NCBI GenBank assembly: GCA_947496375.1
Contig: CANMCY010000003.1
Coordinates: forward strand, 75,568 to 139,567
Source of the DNA: Flavobacteriales bacterium
Lineage (GTDB): Bacteria > Bacteroidota > Bacteroidia > NS11-12g > UBA955
Direction: 5' to 3'
DNA: 64,000 nt
The translations under genes and the position numbers were made by a program. Positions 3,479 through 43,871 of the stretch are shown here, piece by piece. Numbering within the stretch: the first letter of the stretch is position 1; every line of letters starts with the position of its first letter. Below the pieces are notes generated by a model. It did not search any database and had not been told where the DNA came from. It saw nothing but the letters and a program-made list of their open reading frames with translations.

Positions 3479-4456
3479 TTACCAACCCAAAACCCAGGCA
3501 AAAATTAATGGAGCCACAATGGTAGCGTCGCTTTCTACAATGAATTTAGGGGTATTTACATCCAGTTTGCCCCAGGTGATTTTTTCGTTAGGCACCGCAC
3601 CGCTATAGCTGCCGTAACTGGTAGTGCTGTCGCTGATCTGGCAGAAATAACTCCAGAATGGCACATCATGCCACTCCAGATCCTGATACATCATGGGTAC
3701 CACGCAAATCGGGAAGTCACCTGCAATACCTCCGCCAATCTGGAAGAATCCTACACCCTTGCCGCTGCTGTTGTTGCGGTACCAGTCGGCCAGCCACACC
3801 ATGTATTCAATGCCGCTTTTCATGGTGCTTGCCTTCATTTCGTTTTTGATAATATAGCTGGCAAAAATGTTACCCATGGTGCTGTCTTCCCATCCGGGAA
3901 CCACGATGGGCAAATTCTTTTCTGCGGCCGCCAGCATCCAGCTGTTTTTGGGATCTATTTCATAGTACTGCTCCAAGTCGCCCGATAGCAGCATTTTATA
4001 CATGTATTCGTGCGGGAAATAACGTTCTCCCTTATCGTCTGCGTCTTTCCAAACTTTATGAATATGCTTTTGAAGGCGGCGAAATGCCTCCTCTTCCGGA
4101 ATACACGTGTCGGTTACGCGGTTGTAATGGTTTTCCAACAAATCCCATTCATCCTGCGGACTTAAATCGCGGTAATGAGGCACTCGTTTGTAGTGGCTGT
4201 GTGCCACCAGGTTCATGATATCTTCCTCCAGGTTTGCACCGGTGCAACTGATGATATCAATTTTATCCTGACGGATCATTTCAGCCAGACTTTTTCCAAG
4301 CTCAGCCGTACTCATGGCGCCGGCCAGGGTAACCATCATTTTACCACCCTCAGTGAGGTGGGTTTCATATCCTTTGGCGGCATCCACCAAAGCAGCCGCG
4401 TTGAAATGCAAATAGTGCTTCTCTACAAATTGAGATATAGGACCTTTTTGTGTCAT
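3479..4456 (-). CDS. Deoxyhypusine-synthase-like protein
   Basis: A 325-residue member of the deoxyhypusine synthase family. Conserved stretches include LTEGGKMMVTLAGAMSTAEL, IDIISCTGANLEED (NAD-binding region) and GVGFFQIGGGIAGDF. The active-site lysine region survives as KITWGKL, with the lysine at residue 297, equivalent to Lys329 of human DHS. In eukaryotes and archaea the enzyme moves the aminobutyl group of spermidine to a lysine of eIF5A. Bacteria have no eIF5A, so bacterial homologues probably act on small polyamines (homospermidine- or spermidine-type reactions) or an unknown acceptor. The gene stands alone; its ATG lies 5 bases after TAATTTTG. Confidence 0.88.
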   Translation of the reverse strand: MTQKGPISQFVEKHYLHFNAAALVDAAKGYETHLTEGGKMMVTLAGAMSTAELGKSLAEMIRQDKIDIISCTGANLEEDIMNLVAHSHYKRVPHYRDLSPQDEWDLLENHYNRVTDTCIPEEEAFRRLQKHIHKVWKDADDKGERYFPHEYMYKMLLSGDLEQYYEIDPKNSWMLAAAEKNLPIVVPGWEDSTMGNIFASYIIKNEMKASTMKSGIEYMVWLADWYRNNSSGKGVGFFQIGGGIAGDFPICVVPMMYQDLEWHDVPFWSYFCQISDSTTSYGSYSGAVPNEKITWGKLDVNTPKFIVESDATIVAPLIFAWVLGW

Positions 4457-32105: not shown

Positions 32106-32774
32106 ATGGGTGTTTTTAGCTTGATACGAAAATGGGTTTTGCGAATCCTTTTTTGGTTTGTTGTGCTTAGCTTTCTTTGGGTGCTTGCCCTTAAATGGAT
32201 CAATCCGGGTACCACCCTGCTCATGAAGTCGCGGGCTTCAGAATATCCTATCAAAAAAGAATGGGTTTCGCTGGAGAATATTTCTCAAAACATGCAACTG
32301 GCGGTAATTTGCGGGGAGGACCAAAACTATTGTAAACACTGGGGATTTGACATAAAAGCGATTAAGGCCGCAGCAGAAAACAACCTGAAAGGGGGAAAAA
32401 AACGCGGTGCCAGCACCATCAGTCAACAAACCGCCAAAAATGTATTTTTATGGGAAGGCAGAAGCTGGATCCGCAAAGGTCTGGAAGTGTGGTTTACCGC
32501 ACTGATTGAGCTGCTGTGGGGCAAAGAGCGTATCATGGAAGTGTACCTGAATGTGATTGAAACCGGAGACGGCCTCTTTGGTGTAGAAGCCGCGGCCCAA
32601 ACCTATTACGGAAAACCGGCTGCCCAACTCAAAAAAGTGGAAGCCGCCAGAATCGCAGGTCTGCTGCCTTGTCCCGTAACCTGCGGACTAAACAGCCAAT
32701 TTACTTTGCGCAGATCTCAACTGATTTACTATGCCATGACCCGCTATGGAATTACATTAGAGTATCTGAAGTAA
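32106..32774 (+). CDS. mtgA: Monofunctional peptidoglycan glycosyltransferase
   Basis: A 222-residue GT51 enzyme that polymerises lipid II into glycan chains. One N-terminal anchor helix (residues about 13-33) is followed by the glycosyltransferase domain with all five motifs: ICGEDQNYCKHWGFD (catalytic Glu), KKRGASTISQQTAKNVFL, RKGLEVWFTALIE, KERIMEVYLN and AAQTYYGKPAAQL. No transpeptidase domain is present, as expected for MtgA. It is probably co-expressed with neither neighbour: a gap and promoter-like element separate it from each. Confidence 0.93.
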   Translation: MGVFSLIRKWVLRILFWFVVLSFLWVLALKWINPGTTLLMKSRASEYPIKKEWVSLENISQNMQLAVICGEDQNYCKHWGFDIKAIKAAAENNLKGGKKRGASTISQQTAKNVFLWEGRSWIRKGLEVWFTALIELLWGKERIMEVYLNVIETGDGLFGVEAAAQTYYGKPAAQLKKVEAARIAGLLPCPVTCGLNSQFTLRRSQLIYYAMTRYGITLEYLK

Positions 32775-32815: not shown

Positions 32816-33379
32816 ATGGCAACTACCCAGGATATTTCCAATGGCATGTTCATTCGCTACAATGGCGAACTCTGTCAGATTATCGAATGGCAACACCGCA
32901 CTCCCGGCAACCTCCGCGCATTTTATCAGGCCCGCATGCGTCGGGTGAAAGACGGAAAACTGGCTGAAAACCGCTTCCGCAGTGGCGAAGAAGTTATCAT
33001 TGTGCGTGTTGAAACTCATGAACTTCAGTTCTTGTATGAAGAAGGCGACAGCTTTATCTGCATGAACAATGAAACCTTTGACCAGGTACCCATTCCTAAA
33101 TTCATGTTTGGAGACGGTGCAAAATTCATGAAAGAGGGAGATGAAGTGCTGGTTTCTTTTGAGGGGGAATTGCCGATTGGCGCTACCGCGCCTTCCCATG
33201 TGGTGCTTGAAATTACCTACAGCGAACCCGGTGTTCGCGGTGATACCGCCACCAACACCCTGAAACCTGCTACTGTGGAAACAGGCGCAACCGTTATGGT
33301 TCCCCTGTTTGTAGAAACCGGTGAGAAAATTAAAATTGACACCCGCACGGGTGAATATGTAGAACGCGTAAAAGGGTAA
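32816..33379 (+). CDS. efp: Elongation factor P, with asparagine at the tip position
   Basis: A 187-residue EF-P with the usual three beta-barrel domains; the C-terminal part (GDTATNTLKPATVETGATVM then VPLFVETGEKIKIDTRTG) is canonical. EF-P relieves ribosome stalling at proline runs. The domain I loop is the point of interest: where E. coli reads KPGKGQAF with modified Lys34, this protein reads TPGNLRAF, with Asn32 at the Lys34 position and an arginine two residues later. Neither the lysine modifiers EpmA/EpmB nor the arginine modifier EarP is encoded nearby. An agmatinase-like gene starts two bases after its stop. Confidence 0.95.
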   Translation: MATTQDISNGMFIRYNGELCQIIEWQHRTPGNLRAFYQARMRRVKDGKLAENRFRSGEEVIIVRVETHELQFLYEEGDSFICMNNETFDQVPIPKFMFGDGAKFMKEGDEVLVSFEGELPIGATAPSHVVLEITYSEPGVRGDTATNTLKPATVETGATVMVPLFVETGEKIKIDTRTGEYVERVKG

Positions 33380-33381
33380 TC

Positions 33382-34290
33382 TTGGGCCAACTTCCTGTTT
33401 CCGTTCTTCCAGCTGAAGATGGCTTTCTAGCCCTGCCCGAAGCTAACCTGGCTGCATTTGAAAATGCGCGCGTGGTAATTCAGCAGATTCCCTATGAACA
33501 CACAAGCTCTTACATTGCCGGCAGTGACAAAGGTCCGGAGGCCATTGTAAGTGCCAGCCACTTCGTTGAATTCTATGATGAAGAACTCGACCGGGAAACA
33601 TACCGGTATGTAGGTATTGCTACGCTGGCCCCCACAGATTTTACTGACACTACAGACGCTGCCGCAGTGGAGAAAATCCGCAATCAAACCGCTCTATTGC
33701 TGAATGAGGGCAAATTCGTGGTCTCGCTGGGCGCTGAACATACCGTTTCCCTGGGGTTTGTGCAGGCACATCTGGAAAAATATCCGGACCTTAGCGTACT
33801 GCAAATTGATGCACACAGTGATCTTCGTGATCAATACAATGGCAATCCATACTCCCATGCCAGCGTGATGGCTAGGGTGCATGATCTGGGAGTGCCGCTG
33901 GTACAAGTGGGAATTCGGGCACAATGCAAAGAAGAGGCCGATTTGAGAAAATCTGCCTCTAACATCCATACCTGGTATGCACACCAGCTTTGGAACGACG
34001 ATGCCTGGATTGATGCCTGTATTGACAAACTTAGCGATACGGTATACCTGACCATTGATGCTGACGGATTTGACCCATCAGTATGTCCGGCTGTAGGCAC
34101 CGCAGAGCCCGGTGGACTAAGCTGGATGCAGGGTTGCAAGCTGTTTCGCCGGCTGGCAGAACGCAAAAAAGTAGTGGGATTTGACATTGTAGAAATTGCA
34201 CCCCGCGAAACCGATATCATCACCGAATTCAGCATGGCCAAACTCTGTTATAAAATTATCGGATATTTGAACCTACACAACCGCATTTAA
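33382..34290 (+). CDS. Agmatinase / arginase-family ureohydrolase
   Basis: A 302-residue enzyme with the full binuclear Mn2+ site: LGAEHTVSLG (His), QIDAHSDLRD (Asp-x-His-x-Asp), SHASVMARV and LTIDADGFDPS (Asp-x-Asp), plus DIVEIAPRETD. The pattern is closest to agmatinase (agmatine to putrescine and urea), but formiminoglutamase or guanidinobutyrase are possible. Only a TTG (33382) is available as start, two bases after the efp stop; no internal ATG precedes the catalytic motifs. Its pairing with efp suggests a translation and polyamine operon, continued by a cysteine desulfurase gene. Confidence 0.85.
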   Translation: MGQLPVSVLPAEDGFLALPEANLAAFENARVVIQQIPYEHTSSYIAGSDKGPEAIVSASHFVEFYDEELDRETYRYVGIATLAPTDFTDTTDAAAVEKIRNQTALLLNEGKFVVSLGAEHTVSLGFVQAHLEKYPDLSVLQIDAHSDLRDQYNGNPYSHASVMARVHDLGVPLVQVGIRAQCKEEADLRKSASNIHTWYAHQLWNDDAWIDACIDKLSDTVYLTIDADGFDPSVCPAVGTAEPGGLSWMQGCKLFRRLAERKKVVGFDIVEIAPRETDIITEFSMAKLCYKIIGYLNLHNRI

Positions 34291-34292
34291 TC

Positions 34293-35438
34293 ATGCAAAA
34301 CAGAATCTACCTGGACAACGCAGCCACCTCACCACTCGATCCCGAAGTTCTGGATGCCATGATACCGGTGATGCGTGATCTGTATGGAAACCCCAGCAGC
34401 ACCCACGGTCACGGCCGCAAGGTGAGAGCCCTGATGGAAGAGGCCCGTGGCAGTATTGCCAGACTGCTGAATTGCCAGCCCGCAGAAATTTTCTTTACCA
34501 GCGGTGGCACCGAAGCCGATAACCTGGCACTGCGCAGCGCAGTAATGTACAAGGGCATTAAAAACATTATTACCTCACCCATTGAGCACCACGCTGTACT
34601 CCATACCGCCGAAGAACTTCACAAAACAGGCATGGCCGAAATGCACCTGTTGCGATTGACAGAAAATGGCCATGTAGATTTAGACCATCTGCAAACCCTG
34701 CTGAAAGCACTGCCCAATAGTCTGGTGAGTTTAATGCATGCCAACAACGAAATTGGTAACCTGCTCGACATTGAAACTGCAGGCAATATGGCACATAGCG
34801 CAGGGGCGCTGTTTCATTGCGATACCGTACAAACCATGGGGCACTACCCATTTGATTTAAGCCGGGGCCATATTGATTATCTGGCAGCAGCTGCCCACAA
34901 ATTCAACGGTCCCAAAGGCGTGGGTTTCATTTATATGAACAAGGCACACCGCCTTCCACCCCAAATTACCGGCGGTGCACAGGAGCGTGAAGTGCGCGGC
35001 GGAACCGAGAATGTGTATGGCATCATCGGAATGGCAAAGGCGCTGGAAATTTGCTACCGCGATATGGAAAAGAAGCGATCTCACATTGAGCAATTGAAAA
35101 AAAATATGGTGGAATTGCTTGAAAATGAAATTCCAGGGGTTGCTTTCAATGGCGATTGCAAGGGAAATTGCCTCTACACCGTTCTTAGCGTATCATTTCC
35201 TCCCAGTGAAGCTGGTAATATGCTGCTCTTCAACCTGGACATTGCAGGAATTTCAGCGTCCGGCGGAAGCGCCTGCAGCAGCGGTAGCAATGCGGGCAGC
35301 CATGTTATCAGTGCCATAAACCCCGGAACCGACCGAACCACCGTGCGTTTCAGTTTTGGCAAATTCAATACGGTTGAGGAAATCCGCACAACGGTAGAAA
35401 AGCTCAAATCCTGGTATCCGGCAACCGTGCAGGCCTGA
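34293..35438 (+). CDS. Cysteine desulfurase (NifS/IscS-like)
   Basis: A 381-residue PLP enzyme that releases sulfur from cysteine for Fe-S clusters or tRNA thiolation. The N-terminus RIYLDNAATSPLDPEV, HHAVLHTAEEL near residue 100, the PLP lysine in AAHKFNGPKGVGF, REVRGGTENV, and the mobile active-site cysteine in SGGSACSSGS are all present. The loop length around that cysteine fits the NifS/IscS group rather than SufS. IscU or SufB partners are not near. It starts two bases after the agmatinase stop and its own stop overlaps the next gene. Confidence 0.93.
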   Translation: MQNRIYLDNAATSPLDPEVLDAMIPVMRDLYGNPSSTHGHGRKVRALMEEARGSIARLLNCQPAEIFFTSGGTEADNLALRSAVMYKGIKNIITSPIEHHAVLHTAEELHKTGMAEMHLLRLTENGHVDLDHLQTLLKALPNSLVSLMHANNEIGNLLDIETAGNMAHSAGALFHCDTVQTMGHYPFDLSRGHIDYLAAAAHKFNGPKGVGFIYMNKAHRLPPQITGGAQEREVRGGTENVYGIIGMAKALEICYRDMEKKRSHIEQLKKNMVELLENEIPGVAFNGDCKGNCLYTVLSVSFPPSEAGNMLLFNLDIAGISASGGSACSSGSNAGSHVISAINPGTDRTTVRFSFGKFNTVEEIRTTVEKLKSWYPATVQA

Positions 35439-38501: not shown

Positions 38502-38687
38502 ATTCTGTGTGCAGTTTTTTAGCACATAATCTTAAGCATAAACAGGCAACAAAATGTAAATTGTTAGCGTCTTAAAAGTCAGTCACGACACACAATCAAA
38601 CAGTTGATGAAAAAAGACACCCTGTTGCAAGATTTCGTATCGGGTAAATTCAGTATTTTTGAATTTGCTTTTGCAAACAATCGTATA

Positions 38688-41600
38688 ATGAAAGTTCACG
38701 CATTGAAACCCTTGTTATCACTGACGCTTTTCTGTTTTTGTGCCATGGCTCATGCGCAGCATTCGCCGATAATTCGCATGAAAACCGGCAATATTCCCAC
38801 CACCGGTCAGGCGGTGATTCCTGCCATTGAAAAACAGTCCGAGTTTTATACAGCTTTTGTTACATTTTCTGCCATGCCTGATGCTTTGCAGAAAGAGGCA
38901 ATCGCTAAAACCGGCATTGCACTTTTGGAGTATGTGCCCGATTTTACATGGTATGCAGAAATTCCGTCTCGGCTTTCAGGCAAAGACCTTTCTGCATTCG
39001 GAGTTTTTTCCATTCAACCGCTTAAAAATTCATGGAAAACCGAGCTTGATTTATGGCAGCATGGAGGACCTGAATGGGCACGGTCGACTGGATTTCCGGG
39101 CTGGGTTGAGGCAACGGTATTTTTGAATGGCAACCATCGGTATTTGGAGGTAAAAAATGCCTTTGAGGCACAGGGATTTATTTGTCGTGATTATTTACCC
39201 AAATTCAAAACCTTTCAGGTTAGATTTCCGCTGGAAAAAATCCAAAACCTTCTTTCCATTGACGGGTTTTACTGGATGGAACCCATACCGCCAGCTGCAG
39301 AGGCCCATAATTTCCCCGGTCGCGTCAATCACCGTGCTTTGACCCTCAATCTGGGTAGGCCCGGTGGCCGCAATCTCTGGGGCAAAGGCATCACCATAGG
39401 CGAATGGGACGGTGCAGGTATTGGCAGCCATGTGGATTACAACGACCGTATTATCAATAAAAACAATTTCGTTGCCGGCAGCAACGGTAACCATGCTACC
39501 CACGTTTGTGGAACCATCACCGGTGGCGGCATCATTGATCCTTATGGTCAGGGAATGGCACCAAAGGCCAACGTGTTTGGTTGGGATTTCTTTGGCAACG
39601 TAGCTGCTGAAATGGATACTGCCTGTTTCAGAGACAGCATCGTAATGACCAACAACTCTTATGGCTATGGATCAGATCCTTGCGGCACACGTGGCACATA
39701 CGACGGAGTAAGCCGCAATCTGGATATTCTGGTAAACATGTACCCATACCTCAGCCACCAGTTCAGTTCCGGGAATTCGCGCAGTTCCAACTGTGCCACC
39801 GGCGGGTACCGCACCATAAACAGTGGTTTTCAGGCGGCTAAGAATATCATCACGGTGGGTGCTTTGCAATTTAATGACGGAAACAGTTCCTTCCACAGCT
39901 ATGGTCCCATGCGCGACGGTAGAATGAAACCTGACATTTGTGCGATGGGAGTAAGTGTATATTCGACACTTCCTTCAAACACCTATCAGGGCGGATGGAA
40001 CGGCACATCCATGAGCTGCCCGGGAGCTACGGGAACCATCGCCCTGCTGTATGAGCGGTTTAAACAACTCAACAGCAACCTGAAACCCCTGAACCACACC
40101 CTGAAAGCCATTGTTTGCAATACTGCCGATGATATTGGGAATGTTGGTCCGGATTATGCTTTCGGCTTTGGACGCATCAATGCAGTCAGCGCCATGAAGG
40201 TGCTGGAAGATAAAACCTACAAGGTTGACAGTGTTACCCTTAGCAACAGCCGCACCGATACGGTCTATGTAAAACCCGGGACAGCCCGTTTTCAGGTAAT
40301 GCTGGTATGGGATGACATGTACGCTGCCGCAGGGGCCTCTCCTTCACTGATCAATGACCTGGACCTGGAAGTGCAGGACAGCGCCGGAACTGTATATCTT
40401 CCCTGGACGCTAAATCCCGCCTGCCACACCTGCCTGCCTATCCGCAAAAGGGACAGTCTTAACAACGCTGAGCAATTTTATTTTGACAACCCCAAATCCG
40501 GGAAATGGGTAATACGGGTGAAAGGAAAAGCCATTAGCACCACCAAAGAGGTTTATACCATCACCCATAGCCAGATTGGTAACTATGTGCGGGTAAGTTA
40601 CCCCAACGGGCATGAAACCATGATTCCGCCCACCGGAACCGCCCCACAAACCATCGCTTGGGATGCCTTTGGCGCTACCGGAACCTACACCCTGGAATAC
40701 AGTTCAGACAGCGGTGTTACCTGGAATAATATCACCACAGGTCTGGCAGCATCCAACCGCTATTTCACCTGGAATAACGCACCTGCAAATCTCAATACCC
40801 GTAAGGCCCTTGTCCGCATCAAAAACGGAAGTCTTACGGATGTGAGCGATACCACCTTTCACATATTCTACCGTGCCAGCCAGCCCAATGGAATGACCTG
40901 TAGCAGCCAGGTGCACTTATACTGGCCCAAAACCACGGGTGCTGCCACCTACAGGGTATTGCAAAGCATCAATTCATACATGGAGCCCATCGGCACAACC
41001 AAAGATACTTTCTTTACCGTGACCGGATTAATCAACGGAAGGACCTACTGGTTTTCGCTGGAGGCCATAGGGCCCAATGGTGAAACCGGCCCCCGCTGCA
41101 ACGGAAAATCATTTACCCCTACGGCAACCCCGATAGCACCGGCCATTACTACCCAACCCATATCTCAGATTGTATGCGCAGGCAATACCCTGACGTTGAT
41201 TAGCAGTGCTACCGGCACCGCAAGCATGTCTAAACAATGGCAGATTAGCACCGACAGCGGAAAGACATGGCAAAACATAACCGGAAAAAACAAAGACACC
41301 CTTAGCATTCCGAATTTTAGCTGGAATCAGCGTGGAACATACTACAGAAACCGGTATTTAAACGCCTGTCTGAACCTGGTTTACACGCAAGCGGCCGCGA
41401 TAGGAGTGGATACCCAGGCCACCTTCACTTCTCACCCCACAGACCAATGGAAATGTGAAGGAGATTCTGTAGCATGGACTATAAATGTAAACTCAGGCAT
41501 GAAGCCAAGGCTGCAATGGCAGCGAAGCACAGATAATGGTGTAACCTGGAGTGATTTACCGGGCGATACCCTGAACACATTAAAACGCAGAAACCTCACC

Positions 41601-43871
41601 TTCGCCAATAACAGAGAACGATTTAGGGTACTGGCAAGTAATTATTGCAACACCCGGAAACCTTCCAATGTGGGAATACTAACCGTAAAAGCCCCGCTAA
41701 GACTTAAGCTGCCTAACGATACTACCATCTGTTTGGGTAATTCCGTCGCTTTTAATGCCACAGGCACCGGAGGCGATAGCACCCGCTATACCTTCCAGTG
41801 GCAGGGTTTTGCTTCAGGCAAGGGGATAACCGCAAGCCCGACTACCAAAACCACATACCGCATAACACTGGATGATCAATGCACGGTTTATGACGCCAAA
41901 GACTCCGTGATTGTGGATGTAAGAGCACCACTTACACTGAAAGCCGGCAAGGACACTACCCTATGCTTGGGCCGCAGTGTCAATCTGACCGCTGCACTGA
42001 GTGGTGGGCTACCAACCGGTTACAAATACCTGTGGACACCCGGTAACATTACTACAGCGAATTACCTGGTTAATCCATCCACTACCACCGACTACACCAT
42101 CCGCGCACTCGACGGCTGCACCCCAGACACGCTATATGCCACATTCAAGGTCACAACCCGGCCTGCGCTGGACATCAAACTCAATAACGACACACTGATT
42201 TGCAATGGCAATTCTGTAAACCTCAGTGCGATAGTTTCCGGTGGATTAACCCCAAGCAGAATCATAAGCTGGAATCAGGGACTGGGAACAGGATTAAGTA
42301 AATTGGTGACACCCGGAACAAAAACCACCTACAGGGCCATTGTCAGTGACGGATGCTCTGTGAAGAACGATACCGCTTTTGTAACTGTTGATGTGAGGGC
42401 TCCTCTATCATTAGACTTAAAAAGAGATACCACCCTTTGCCGTGGCCGCAATGTAACATTAACAGCCACTCCGGCAGGAGGCCTCAATACGGGCTATAGC
42501 ATTCAGTGGAATCAGGGATTAAGCAGTGTTTACAACCACCTTGTTTCACCTGTCAACACAACCATTTACAGCGCAATTTTAAGTGACGGTTGCACCAAAA
42601 AATCAGACACGCAGACAGTGACTGTCACTGTGCGCCAGGCACTGAATATTGCCACCAATGCAGATACCACACTTTGTTTCGGGAACCCAATATCTCTCAA
42701 TACAGTGGCCACCGGAGGAAACGGATTGTATCAGTACCGCTGGGAGGATGTGGCCAATCCTGCGACCTCGCTTAGTAGCAGTGCAACGCTAAACCTCAAT
42801 CCCACAAGCACCGTCACCATTCGTGTAATCCTTACCGATGGATGCACCATAAAAAGCGATACTGCACAGCTGAAAATCAGTGTTTTGACCAACCTCAGCA
42901 TTACTACATCTCCCGACACAGCCATTTGTGGCGGCGAAATTGCATCATTGCGCGTGAAAGCATCGGGTGGCAACGGTAATTATCAGTACACCTGGACAGA
43001 TCTGTCGGATAACAGCAGTGCAGGAAGCAGCAGTGGTCTTACGGTTTCTCCGGCGAATACCCGCAGCTACAGAATAGCTGTAACGGATGGATGCACTATA
43101 GCCCAGCCACAGCGCAACATTCAGGTTCAGGTTGTGGCCCAGCCCCTTGGTAGTCTATTTATTCCAAATAATGTGGCCTGTGATCCCGGGGTTTTTAGTG
43201 TGAAAAATACAAGTTCTGCTGCTGCACGCTATCTGCTGAACAACAGACGCTACAGTGGTGCAGACACCGCTTTGAGATTTTCGACCGGAAATTATACAGT
43301 CAAGCTAACGGCATTCAATAGTCTGGGCTGTATAGATACAGTTTCCTATGTGCTAATTGTCAATCCCAGGCCCAAAGCAGGATTCAGTTTCACCCCTTCT
43401 GCTCCAAGGGAGTTGCAACCCGTTTCATTTACAGACCAAAGCAGCGGCGCAACAAGCTGGCAGTGGAATCTGCCCCATGGGTTTTTTAATACCCAGCAAC
43501 CCGGCACATGGGTTTCCAACGATACAGGCACATGGATGGCACAGCAAATCGTGGGTAACACCTTTAACTGCTTTGATACCTTGAATCAGGTAATACGGGT
43601 GGGAATCGGATATTACCTGCACATACCCAATGCATTCACTCCGGACAATAACGGCCTTAATGAGGTATGGAAACCCAGTTTACGCGGAATCAAATCATAC
43701 AGACTGAGGATTTTCAACCGATGGGGACAAATGGTATTCAAATCTGAGGATCCCAATGCCGGCTGGTCGGGAGACAATGCTCCGCAGGGCACCTATATCG
43801 TAGAAATCAGCATTATCAATGCATACGATGAACGCATCACGGAAAAAGGGACCATTACACTGATTCGTTAA
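38688..43871 (+). CDS. Giant secreted subtilisin (S8) with Ig-like repeats and T9SS type B sorting domain
   Basis: A 1727-residue protein starting with a signal peptide (to about residue 24). After a long prodomain comes an S8 protease with triad Asp241 (GEWDGAG), His269 (NHATHVCGT) and Ser441 (NGTSMSCPG). A P-domain-like beta domain follows, then a fibronectin-like domain, two Ig-like domains (each with paired Cys), six tandem domains of about 80 residues (residues about 1000-1485), a PKD-like domain and a gliding-motility-associated C-terminal domain (PNAFTPDNNGLNEVW to the end). The last marks T9SS type B export. An earlier in-frame ATG at 38604 would precede the signal peptide. It ends 17 bases inside the opposing kinase gene. 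Confidence 0.93.
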   Translation: MKVHALKPLLSLTLFCFCAMAHAQHSPIIRMKTGNIPTTGQAVIPAIEKQSEFYTAFVTFSAMPDALQKEAIAKTGIALLEYVPDFTWYAEIPSRLSGKDLSAFGVFSIQPLKNSWKTELDLWQHGGPEWARSTGFPGWVEATVFLNGNHRYLEVKNAFEAQGFICRDYLPKFKTFQVRFPLEKIQNLLSIDGFYWMEPIPPAAEAHNFPGRVNHRALTLNLGRPGGRNLWGKGITIGEWDGAGIGSHVDYNDRIINKNNFVAGSNGNHATHVCGTITGGGIIDPYGQGMAPKANVFGWDFFGNVAAEMDTACFRDSIVMTNNSYGYGSDPCGTRGTYDGVSRNLDILVNMYPYLSHQFSSGNSRSSNCATGGYRTINSGFQAAKNIITVGALQFNDGNSSFHSYGPMRDGRMKPDICAMGVSVYSTLPSNTYQGGWNGTSMSCPGATGTIALLYERFKQLNSNLKPLNHTLKAIVCNTADDIGNVGPDYAFGFGRINAVSAMKVLEDKTYKVDSVTLSNSRTDTVYVKPGTARFQVMLVWDDMYAAAGASPSLINDLDLEVQDSAGTVYLPWTLNPACHTCLPIRKRDSLNNAEQFYFDNPKSGKWVIRVKGKAISTTKEVYTITHSQIGNYVRVSYPNGHETMIPPTGTAPQTIAWDAFGATGTYTLEYSSDSGVTWNNITTGLAASNRYFTWNNAPANLNTRKALVRIKNGSLTDVSDTTFHIFYRASQPNGMTCSSQVHLYWPKTTGAATYRVLQSINSYMEPIGTTKDTFFTVTGLINGRTYWFSLEAIGPNGETGPRCNGKSFTPTATPIAPAITTQPISQIVCAGNTLTLISSATGTASMSKQWQISTDSGKTWQNITGKNKDTLSIPNFSWNQRGTYYRNRYLNACLNLVYTQAAAIGVDTQATFTSHPTDQWKCEGDSVAWTINVNSGMKPRLQWQRSTDNGVTWSDLPGDTLNTLKRRNLTFANNRERFRVLASNYCNTRKPSNVGILTVKAPLRLKLPNDTTICLGNSVAFNATGTGGDSTRYTFQWQGFASGKGITASPTTKTTYRITLDDQCTVYDAKDSVIVDVRAPLTLKAGKDTTLCLGRSVNLTAALSGGLPTGYKYLWTPGNITTANYLVNPSTTTDYTIRALDGCTPDTLYATFKVTTRPALDIKLNNDTLICNGNSVNLSAIVSGGLTPSRIISWNQGLGTGLSKLVTPGTKTTYRAIVSDGCSVKNDTAFVTVDVRAPLSLDLKRDTTLCRGRNVTLTATPAGGLNTGYSIQWNQGLSSVYNHLVSPVNTTIYSAILSDGCTKKSDTQTVTVTVRQALNIATNADTTLCFGNPISLNTVATGGNGLYQYRWEDVANPATSLSSSATLNLNPTSTVTIRVILTDGCTIKSDTAQLKISVLTNLSITTSPDTAICGGEIASLRVKASGGNGNYQYTWTDLSDNSSAGSSSGLTVSPANTRSYRIAVTDGCTIAQPQRNIQVQVVAQPLGSLFIPNNVACDPGVFSVKNTSSAAARYLLNNRRYSGADTALRFSTGNYTVKLTAFNSLGCIDTVSYVLIVNPRPKAGFSFTPSAPRELQPVSFTDQSSGATSWQWNLPHGFFNTQQPGTWVSNDTGTWMAQQIVGNTFNCFDTLNQVIRVGIGYYLHIPNAFTPDNNGLNEVWKPSLRGIKSYRLRIFNRWGQMVFKSEDPNAGWSGDNAPQGTYIVEISIINAYDERITEKGTITLIR
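41691..43140 (+). repeat. Six tandem Ig-like domain repeats (protein level) inside the subtilisin gene
   Basis: Each unit of about 80 residues starts like 'DTTLCxGxxVxLxA' and contains 'GYxxxWxxG', 'V(S/N/T)PxxTTxY' and 'DGC', giving one Cys pair per unit. Openings: NDTTICLGNS, KDTTLCLGRS, NDTLICNGNS, RDTTLCRGRN, ADTTLCFGNP, PDTAICGGEI. At DNA level the copies are diverged. Confidence 0.85.

Follow-up and report, generated by a model that had tools for sequence, protein, structure and literature searches.

An Asn-type (N-x-R) loop in the elongation factor P of a Bacteroidota genome and its conserved agmatinase neighbour

The efp locus and its product

The window, by which we mean the whole stretch of 64,000 nucleotides analysed here, comes from a Bacteroidota genome of 2.49 Mb (99.99% complete). 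The named relatives closest to it are uncultured MAGs, and several of these are labelled as originating from lakes, reservoirs or ponds. It carries a gene for elongation factor P (efp) with a transglycosylase gene upstream and genes for an agmatinase and a cysteine desulfurase downstream (Table 1). A preliminary description of this DNA had placed a complete ureohydrolase two bases past efp, which is confirmed by the efp stop at 33379 and the agmatinase start at 33382.

Table 1. Features of the window discussed in the text, with positions counted from its first nucleotide
Feature	Position	Strand	Remarks
Deoxyhypusine-synthase (DHS)-like protein (PF01916)	3479..4456	-	Retains the catalytic-lysine region (EKITWGKLDV); lies about 28 kb away from efp
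Monofunctional peptidoglycan transglycosylase	32106..32774	+	Upstream of efp; synteny control
efp, elongation factor P (EF-P)	32816..33379	+	ATG start 32816, TAA stop 33379, 187 aa; tip residue Asn32 in the loop RTPGNLRAF
Loop codons R28-F36 (R-T-P-G-N-L-R-A-F)	32897..32923	+	N32, L33 and R34 are the co-switching triplet
Agmatinase (ureohydrolase)	33382..34290	+	Begins with TTG, 2 nt past the efp stop; the six metal ligands are all present
NifS/IscS-type cysteine desulfurase	34293..35438	+	Last of the three genes in the retained efp-agmatinase-nifS block
Very large predicted secreted protein	38604-43871		By eye, subtilisin-like N-terminus, repeats and C-terminal sorting-type domain

All three EF-P domains (PF08207, PF01132 and PF09285; KOW, OB and C-terminal, respectively) were found in the product by Pfam searches over the curated cut-offs, and the protein matched the NCBIfam model TIGR00038 'efp' with 228 bits against a cut-off of 186. 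The loop H27-R-T-P-G-N32-L-R34-A-F aligns with K-P-G-K34-G-Q-A-F of Escherichia coli, which places Asn32 at the position of the E. coli Lys34 and Arg34 two residues further on, as had been read in the preliminary description. The window efp encodes a genuine EF-P with an Asn-type (N-x-R) loop. A second EF-P with a Lys tip, which the same description had named as evidence against a special system, is absent; a search of the 99.99% complete genome with PF01132 returned the window EF-P as its single match.

The protein was also compared with the known classes of EF-P. Scores against the NCBIfam models for EfpL and YeiP were 109 bits (cut-off 216) and 106 bits (cut-off 264), and the loop has seven residues instead of the extended Arg-tip loop that these paralogues require. 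The β-lysylated class (EpmA/EpmB) and the 5-aminopentanol class of Bacillus subtilis (YmfI) both have Lys where the window EF-P has Asn32. The rhamnosylated class (EarP) has an Arg tip and lacks Pro at -2, the position of Pro30 in the window protein, and hypusine-type EF-P/IF5A depends on a Lys acceptor, for which neither Asn32 nor any other EF-P of this genome provides a candidate. With an Asn tip, Arg at +2 and Pro-Gly before the tip, the protein was assigned to a proposed N-x-R type.

Distribution of the Asn tip and its exchange with Lys-type loops

To see how widespread the loop is, 296 genomes sampled from the Bacteroidota phylum were searched with a DNA pattern for PGNLRAFxQ, which matched 116 of them, in 115 cases within EF-P and in one (G249) outside it. 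The same pattern read backwards matched none of the 296, so that the loop is found far beyond chance. Further Asn loops fall outside the pattern (PGNWRAF, PGNKRGF, PGNLHAF and PGNLRAFYR). Named carriers include the cultured Sphingobacterium, Pedobacter, Mucilaginibacter and Ohtaekwangia as well as Kapabacteria-labelled and Chlorobiota-labelled genomes; the TPGNLRAF loop that the preliminary description associated with Sphingobacteriia occurs in the first three genera and extends to the last two groups. Nearly all of the N-type genomes sampled have no EF-P besides the N-type protein. A lineage oddity or a sequencing error was rejected as an explanation of the Asn tip, the identical loop being present in hundreds of loci. 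The tip itself is already known, because Volkwein et al. 2019 (PMC6544042) report it for 2.23% of 1166 EF-Ps, always with Pro at -2 (Pro32). The distribution indicates an N-x-R loop class of long standing that occurs widely across the Bacteroidota phylum.

Other loops were noted in passing. Another Asn-tip loop, HVNPGNWRAFVR, was seen in several other families of the phylum (loci L104, L105, L112, L123, L125 and L126), and Arg-tip loops without Pro also occur within the phylum, namely KTARAAAK (G033) and QTGRGGAY (the second EF-P of G196) at loci L090 and L109. One contig titled Candidatus Competibacteraceae (L176) carries a Bacteroidota-type efp and probably belongs to a mislabelled or mixed MAG.

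The residues at the tip, +1 and +2 were compared across 111 representative EF-Ps. Asn-tip triplets were N-L-R (76), N-W-R (6), N-K-R (1) and N-L-H (1), so that Arg is found at +2 in 83 of 84 Asn-tip representatives, the window protein being one of the 83, with L, W or K at +1. Lys-tip triplets were K-G-G (13), K-G-P (5), K-G-A (4), K-G-N (1), K-G-R (1) and K-T-R (1); K-G-x accounts for 24 of the 111, one of these with Arg at +2, and Arg tips account for two. Arg34 is essentially part of the Asn-tip signature, and carries more weight than the preliminary description implied. It is not exclusive to Asn tips, because two Lys-tip proteins (PAKTRAF and PGKGRAS) also have Arg at +2. The loop PAKTRAF was observed at locus L082 in G311, a member of the window's own family, and with its Lys tip, Ala at -1 and Arg at +2 is a possible intermediate.

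EF-P trees were constructed without the loop columns. A quick tree of 111 rows requires 8 changes for the Asn label and 7 for the Lys label, whereas a careful tree of 108 rows, from which three divergent rows were left out, needs 6, and its well-supported branches force at least five switches between N and K. Residue 33 tracks the tip in 4.6 and residue 34 in 4.0 of five independent pairs, never in the opposite direction; the best of the other columns reached 3.0 of 5 (173 columns tested), and the same two residues also lead the co-switching on the quick tree. With five pairs, a sign test cannot reach the 0.05 level, and the control for this covariation is the ranking against all other columns. 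In these alignments, the EF-P tip switches between N and K as a three-residue unit. Judged against the open-licence PMC literature, this block switching appears to be undescribed and new; in the available portion of Volkwein et al. (PMC6544042), neither the coupling to Arg at +2 nor repeated N/K block switches were found.

Both types can also be seen within one genome. Pedobacter and its relatives encode, in tandem, one EF-P of the Asn type (TPGNLRAFYQ) and one of the Lys type (TPGKGGAFYT), with the second copy approximately 100-250 bp after the first (L017, L025, L192, L196 and L204), and on the quick tree the Lys-type copies of the Sphingobacteriaceae nest among Asn copies.

Gene order around efp and the polyamine genes

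The window agmatinase scored 245 bits against the TIGR01230 model (cut-off 174) and retains all six metal ligands, in the motifs GAEH, DAHSD and DADGFDP; on this evidence it is predicted to be a conventional polyamine-pathway ureohydrolase with a complete catalytic site. In loci of the same genus whose agmatinase begins with TTG, the gap to efp is 2, 5 or 11 bases. The agmatinase follows efp in all 35 genomes of the window's family that have efp and in 6 of 6 genomes from one genus of the sister family, and the loops read in these two groups are all Asn-type, with the exception of G311. Of the 14 resolvable genomes from Lys-type genera of the sister family, 8 have the agmatinase next to efp, 2 have it elsewhere and 4 lack it; two of the 14 (G344 and G348) were placed by coordinates and genus, their loops not having been read. 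At least four of these eight adjacencies have a gap of approximately 660-780 nt. In G341, G345, G349 and G352, all with a Lys tip, the agmatinase is missing and efp followed by nifS is kept.

Across the order, efp and agmatinase are adjacent in 49 of 55 resolvable genomes. The transglycosylase gene is present in near relatives (L130-L134). It was found in none of 20 more distant members of the order, whereas among the 19 resolvable loci of this set 13 retain the agmatinase and 17 retain nifS. The gene order can therefore only in part be regarded as a leftover of recent shared ancestry, and the block efp-agmatinase-nifS appears to be selectively retained. Outside the order, no agmatinase was seen near Asn-tip efp genes in the loci read (flanks of 1.5 to 4 kb). 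Because Lys-tip relatives share the efp-agmatinase link and Asn-tip loci outside the order do not, it is tied to lineage and not to the Asn tip, and an agmatinase as required partner of Asn-tip EF-P was rejected. The conservation of efp-ureohydrolase synteny, which the preliminary description had proposed as a check, thus holds within this order. Its idea of a special system of Asn-tip EF-P and polyamine enzyme does not, since Lys-tip sister genera share the gene order and four genomes lost the agmatinase and kept efp. Comparison of these loci indicates that the block is real and preferentially retained, within this order only, and it is new as judged against the open-licence PMC literature. 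The agmatinase is probably a conserved neighbour and not an EF-P modifier. In G304 (L055, 871-2037, minus strand), a 389-aa frame was observed in which an EF-P without its C-terminus runs into an agmatinase without its N-terminus; it was set aside as a deletion or an assembly join.

The window genome encodes, along with the agmatinase, a DHS-like protein and a short arginine decarboxylase of speA-like type, whose match to the SpeA model falls under the cut-off. Bacterial DHS homologues have been reported to make homospermidine (Burnat 2018, cited in PMC9992855), and in Thermus a DHS homologue and a ureohydrolase make homospermidine from agmatine, the former producing caldomycin and the latter turning caldomycin into homospermidine (PMC10981699). 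On this reading, arginine would be converted to agmatine by the speA product, which would pass to the agmatinase and then to a DHS-like homospermidine or caldomycin-type synthase. The efp-adjoining agmatinase, together with speA and the DHS-like gene, is best read as serving polyamine synthesis, which is the likely function of the DHS-like gene also, with homospermidine as a candidate product.

These genes could alternatively constitute a hypusine-like system in which DHS transfers agmatine or an aminobutyl group to EF-P and the agmatinase trims it. The frequent adjacency of efp and agmatinase in this order would fit such a system, as would gene clusters of aIF5A and agmatinase in approximately 62% of Euryarchaeota, for which a role in aIF5A modification was proposed and in which the Haloferax agmatinase-like gene appears to be essential (PMC5178350). 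This parallel is striking and may keep a functional link between efp and agmatinase alive. DHS was furthermore suggested as a possible modifier of Lys- or Asn-tip EF-Ps by Volkwein et al. (PMC6544042), and the DHS-like gene is found in 113 of 115 N-tip genomes compared with 120 of 181 others, as raw counts that ignore kinship. The known DHS acceptor, however, is a lysine amine, and because DHS chemistry needs lysine, modification by DHS is doubtful where the tip is Asn. Gene context disfavours it also: in many genomes of the sister family (e.g. G341, C43:10427-12717) the speA-like gene immediately precedes the DHS-like gene, which points to polyamines, the four Lys-tip genomes without agmatinase keep efp, DHS and speA, and none of the N-tip loci read outside the order shows the adjacency. 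We consider a hypusine-like system highly improbable, and the data weigh against the published suggestion of bacterial DHS-like proteins as modifiers of Asn-tip EF-Ps.

The question of tip modification

The genome had been expected from the preliminary description to be examined for epmA and epmB, and neither is present: EpmA and EpmB scored over cut-off in none of 58 genomes (the window genome and 57 relatives), whereas, of 14 control genomes, 2 scored over cut-off in the EpmA search and 1 in the EpmB search. EarP was likewise found in none of the 58, in a search that scored in no control genome and so is without a positive control. That description had left a choice between an EF-P that acts unmodified and one that acts through a modification on another loop residue. 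The former is now the leading reading: we lean towards an N-type EF-P that relieves stalling at proline motifs without tip modification, the neighbouring agmatinase not being its modifier. From sequence comparison, the tip is most likely unmodified.

Modification by an enzyme of another kind, at Asn32 (e.g. hydroxylation or glycosylation) or Arg34 (e.g. glycosylation or methylation), on which the activity of the protein would depend, is unlikely, though worth serious consideration. Asn and Arg are both nearly invariant within the class, modifications are carried by those Lys- and Arg-tip EF-Ps that have been well studied, and more than half of bacteria are stated to have no known EF-P modification enzyme in PMC6544042. 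Against this, EpmA and EpmB are absent and EarP was not found in the search described above, N-L-R is not an N-glycosylation sequon, and the Pro at -2 is one that blocks activation of E. coli EF-P by EarP (PMC6544042). An unmodified tip has a precedent in EfpL, a functional EF-P paralogue (PMC11611912).

According to PMC6544042, E. coli EF-P is inactivated by K34N alone, as by K34A, K34M and K34Q, and retains 3.8% and 21% activity with G35N and Q36S, respectively. The inactive variants, together with the N-type and K-type proteins that stand side by side in Pedobacter-type genomes as if dividing the work, could be taken to mean that N-type EF-P has lost or changed its polyproline rescue and serves another ribosomal function. 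We find this very improbable, given that the N-type protein is the only EF-P here and in nearly all N-type genomes sampled, that it is conserved along its entire length and that PPX motifs occur in proteins of the window, which favour a normal role. Because K34N alone is dead and yet N-x-R is fixed across large clades, we infer a different, self-consistent loop with Arg at +2 carrying the contact.

For such an unmodified N-x-R loop, the Pro-Gly turn and the overall fold would be kept, the tip and residues 33 and 34 would move together because N alone fails, and evolution would shift between two self-consistent solutions, K-G-x and N-x-R, the latter relieving proline-motif stalling without tip modification. 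Arg at +2 may supply what lysine did, and may contact the tRNA. The fuller proposal, which we hold to be evenly balanced, is that N-(L/W/K)-R is a modification-free cassette whose Arg at +2 stands in for the modified lysine. This cassette would be ancestral to the Bacteroidota phylum or at least very ancient within it, would have been swapped with K-G-x as a unit on at least five occasions, and in Pedobacter would stand in tandem with a Lys-type paralogue. N-x-R loops bear on how EF-P functions in bacteria that lack any known modification enzyme, which make up more than half of all bacteria. Block switching predicts that E. coli EF-P with K34N/G35L/Q36R could be active without EpmA although K34N alone is dead, and the Pedobacter tandem allows both kinds of EF-P to be compared side by side in one cell.

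Among known systems, E. coli-type EF-P (K34, β-lysylated by EpmA/EpmB) shares with the window protein its three domains, seven-residue loop, Pro at -2 and Gly at -1, and differs in that the window protein has an Asn tip, Leu at +1 and Arg at +2 in a genome lacking EpmA and EpmB. The Asn-tip EF-Ps of Volkwein et al. (PMC6544042) are alike in always having Pro32 and in the DHS-like proteins of their genomes. EfpL/YeiP and the rhamnosylated Arg-tip EF-P are likewise EF-P paralogues, EfpL being active with an unmodified tip, but the Arg tip with an extended loop of EfpL and the Arg tip without Pro32 of the EarP type contrast with the seven-residue loop, Pro and Asn tip seen here. In the euryarchaeal aIF5A-agmatinase-DHS clusters (PMC5178350), the agmatinase also adjoins the EF-P/IF5A gene and the DHS family is in the genome, whereas aIF5A has a hypusine lysine and the window has an Asn tip, with its DHS-like gene 28 kb away. 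The caldomycin synthase and SpeB-type ureohydrolase of Thermus (PMC10981699), likened here by gene family, also combine a DHS homologue with a ureohydrolase for agmatine-derived compounds.
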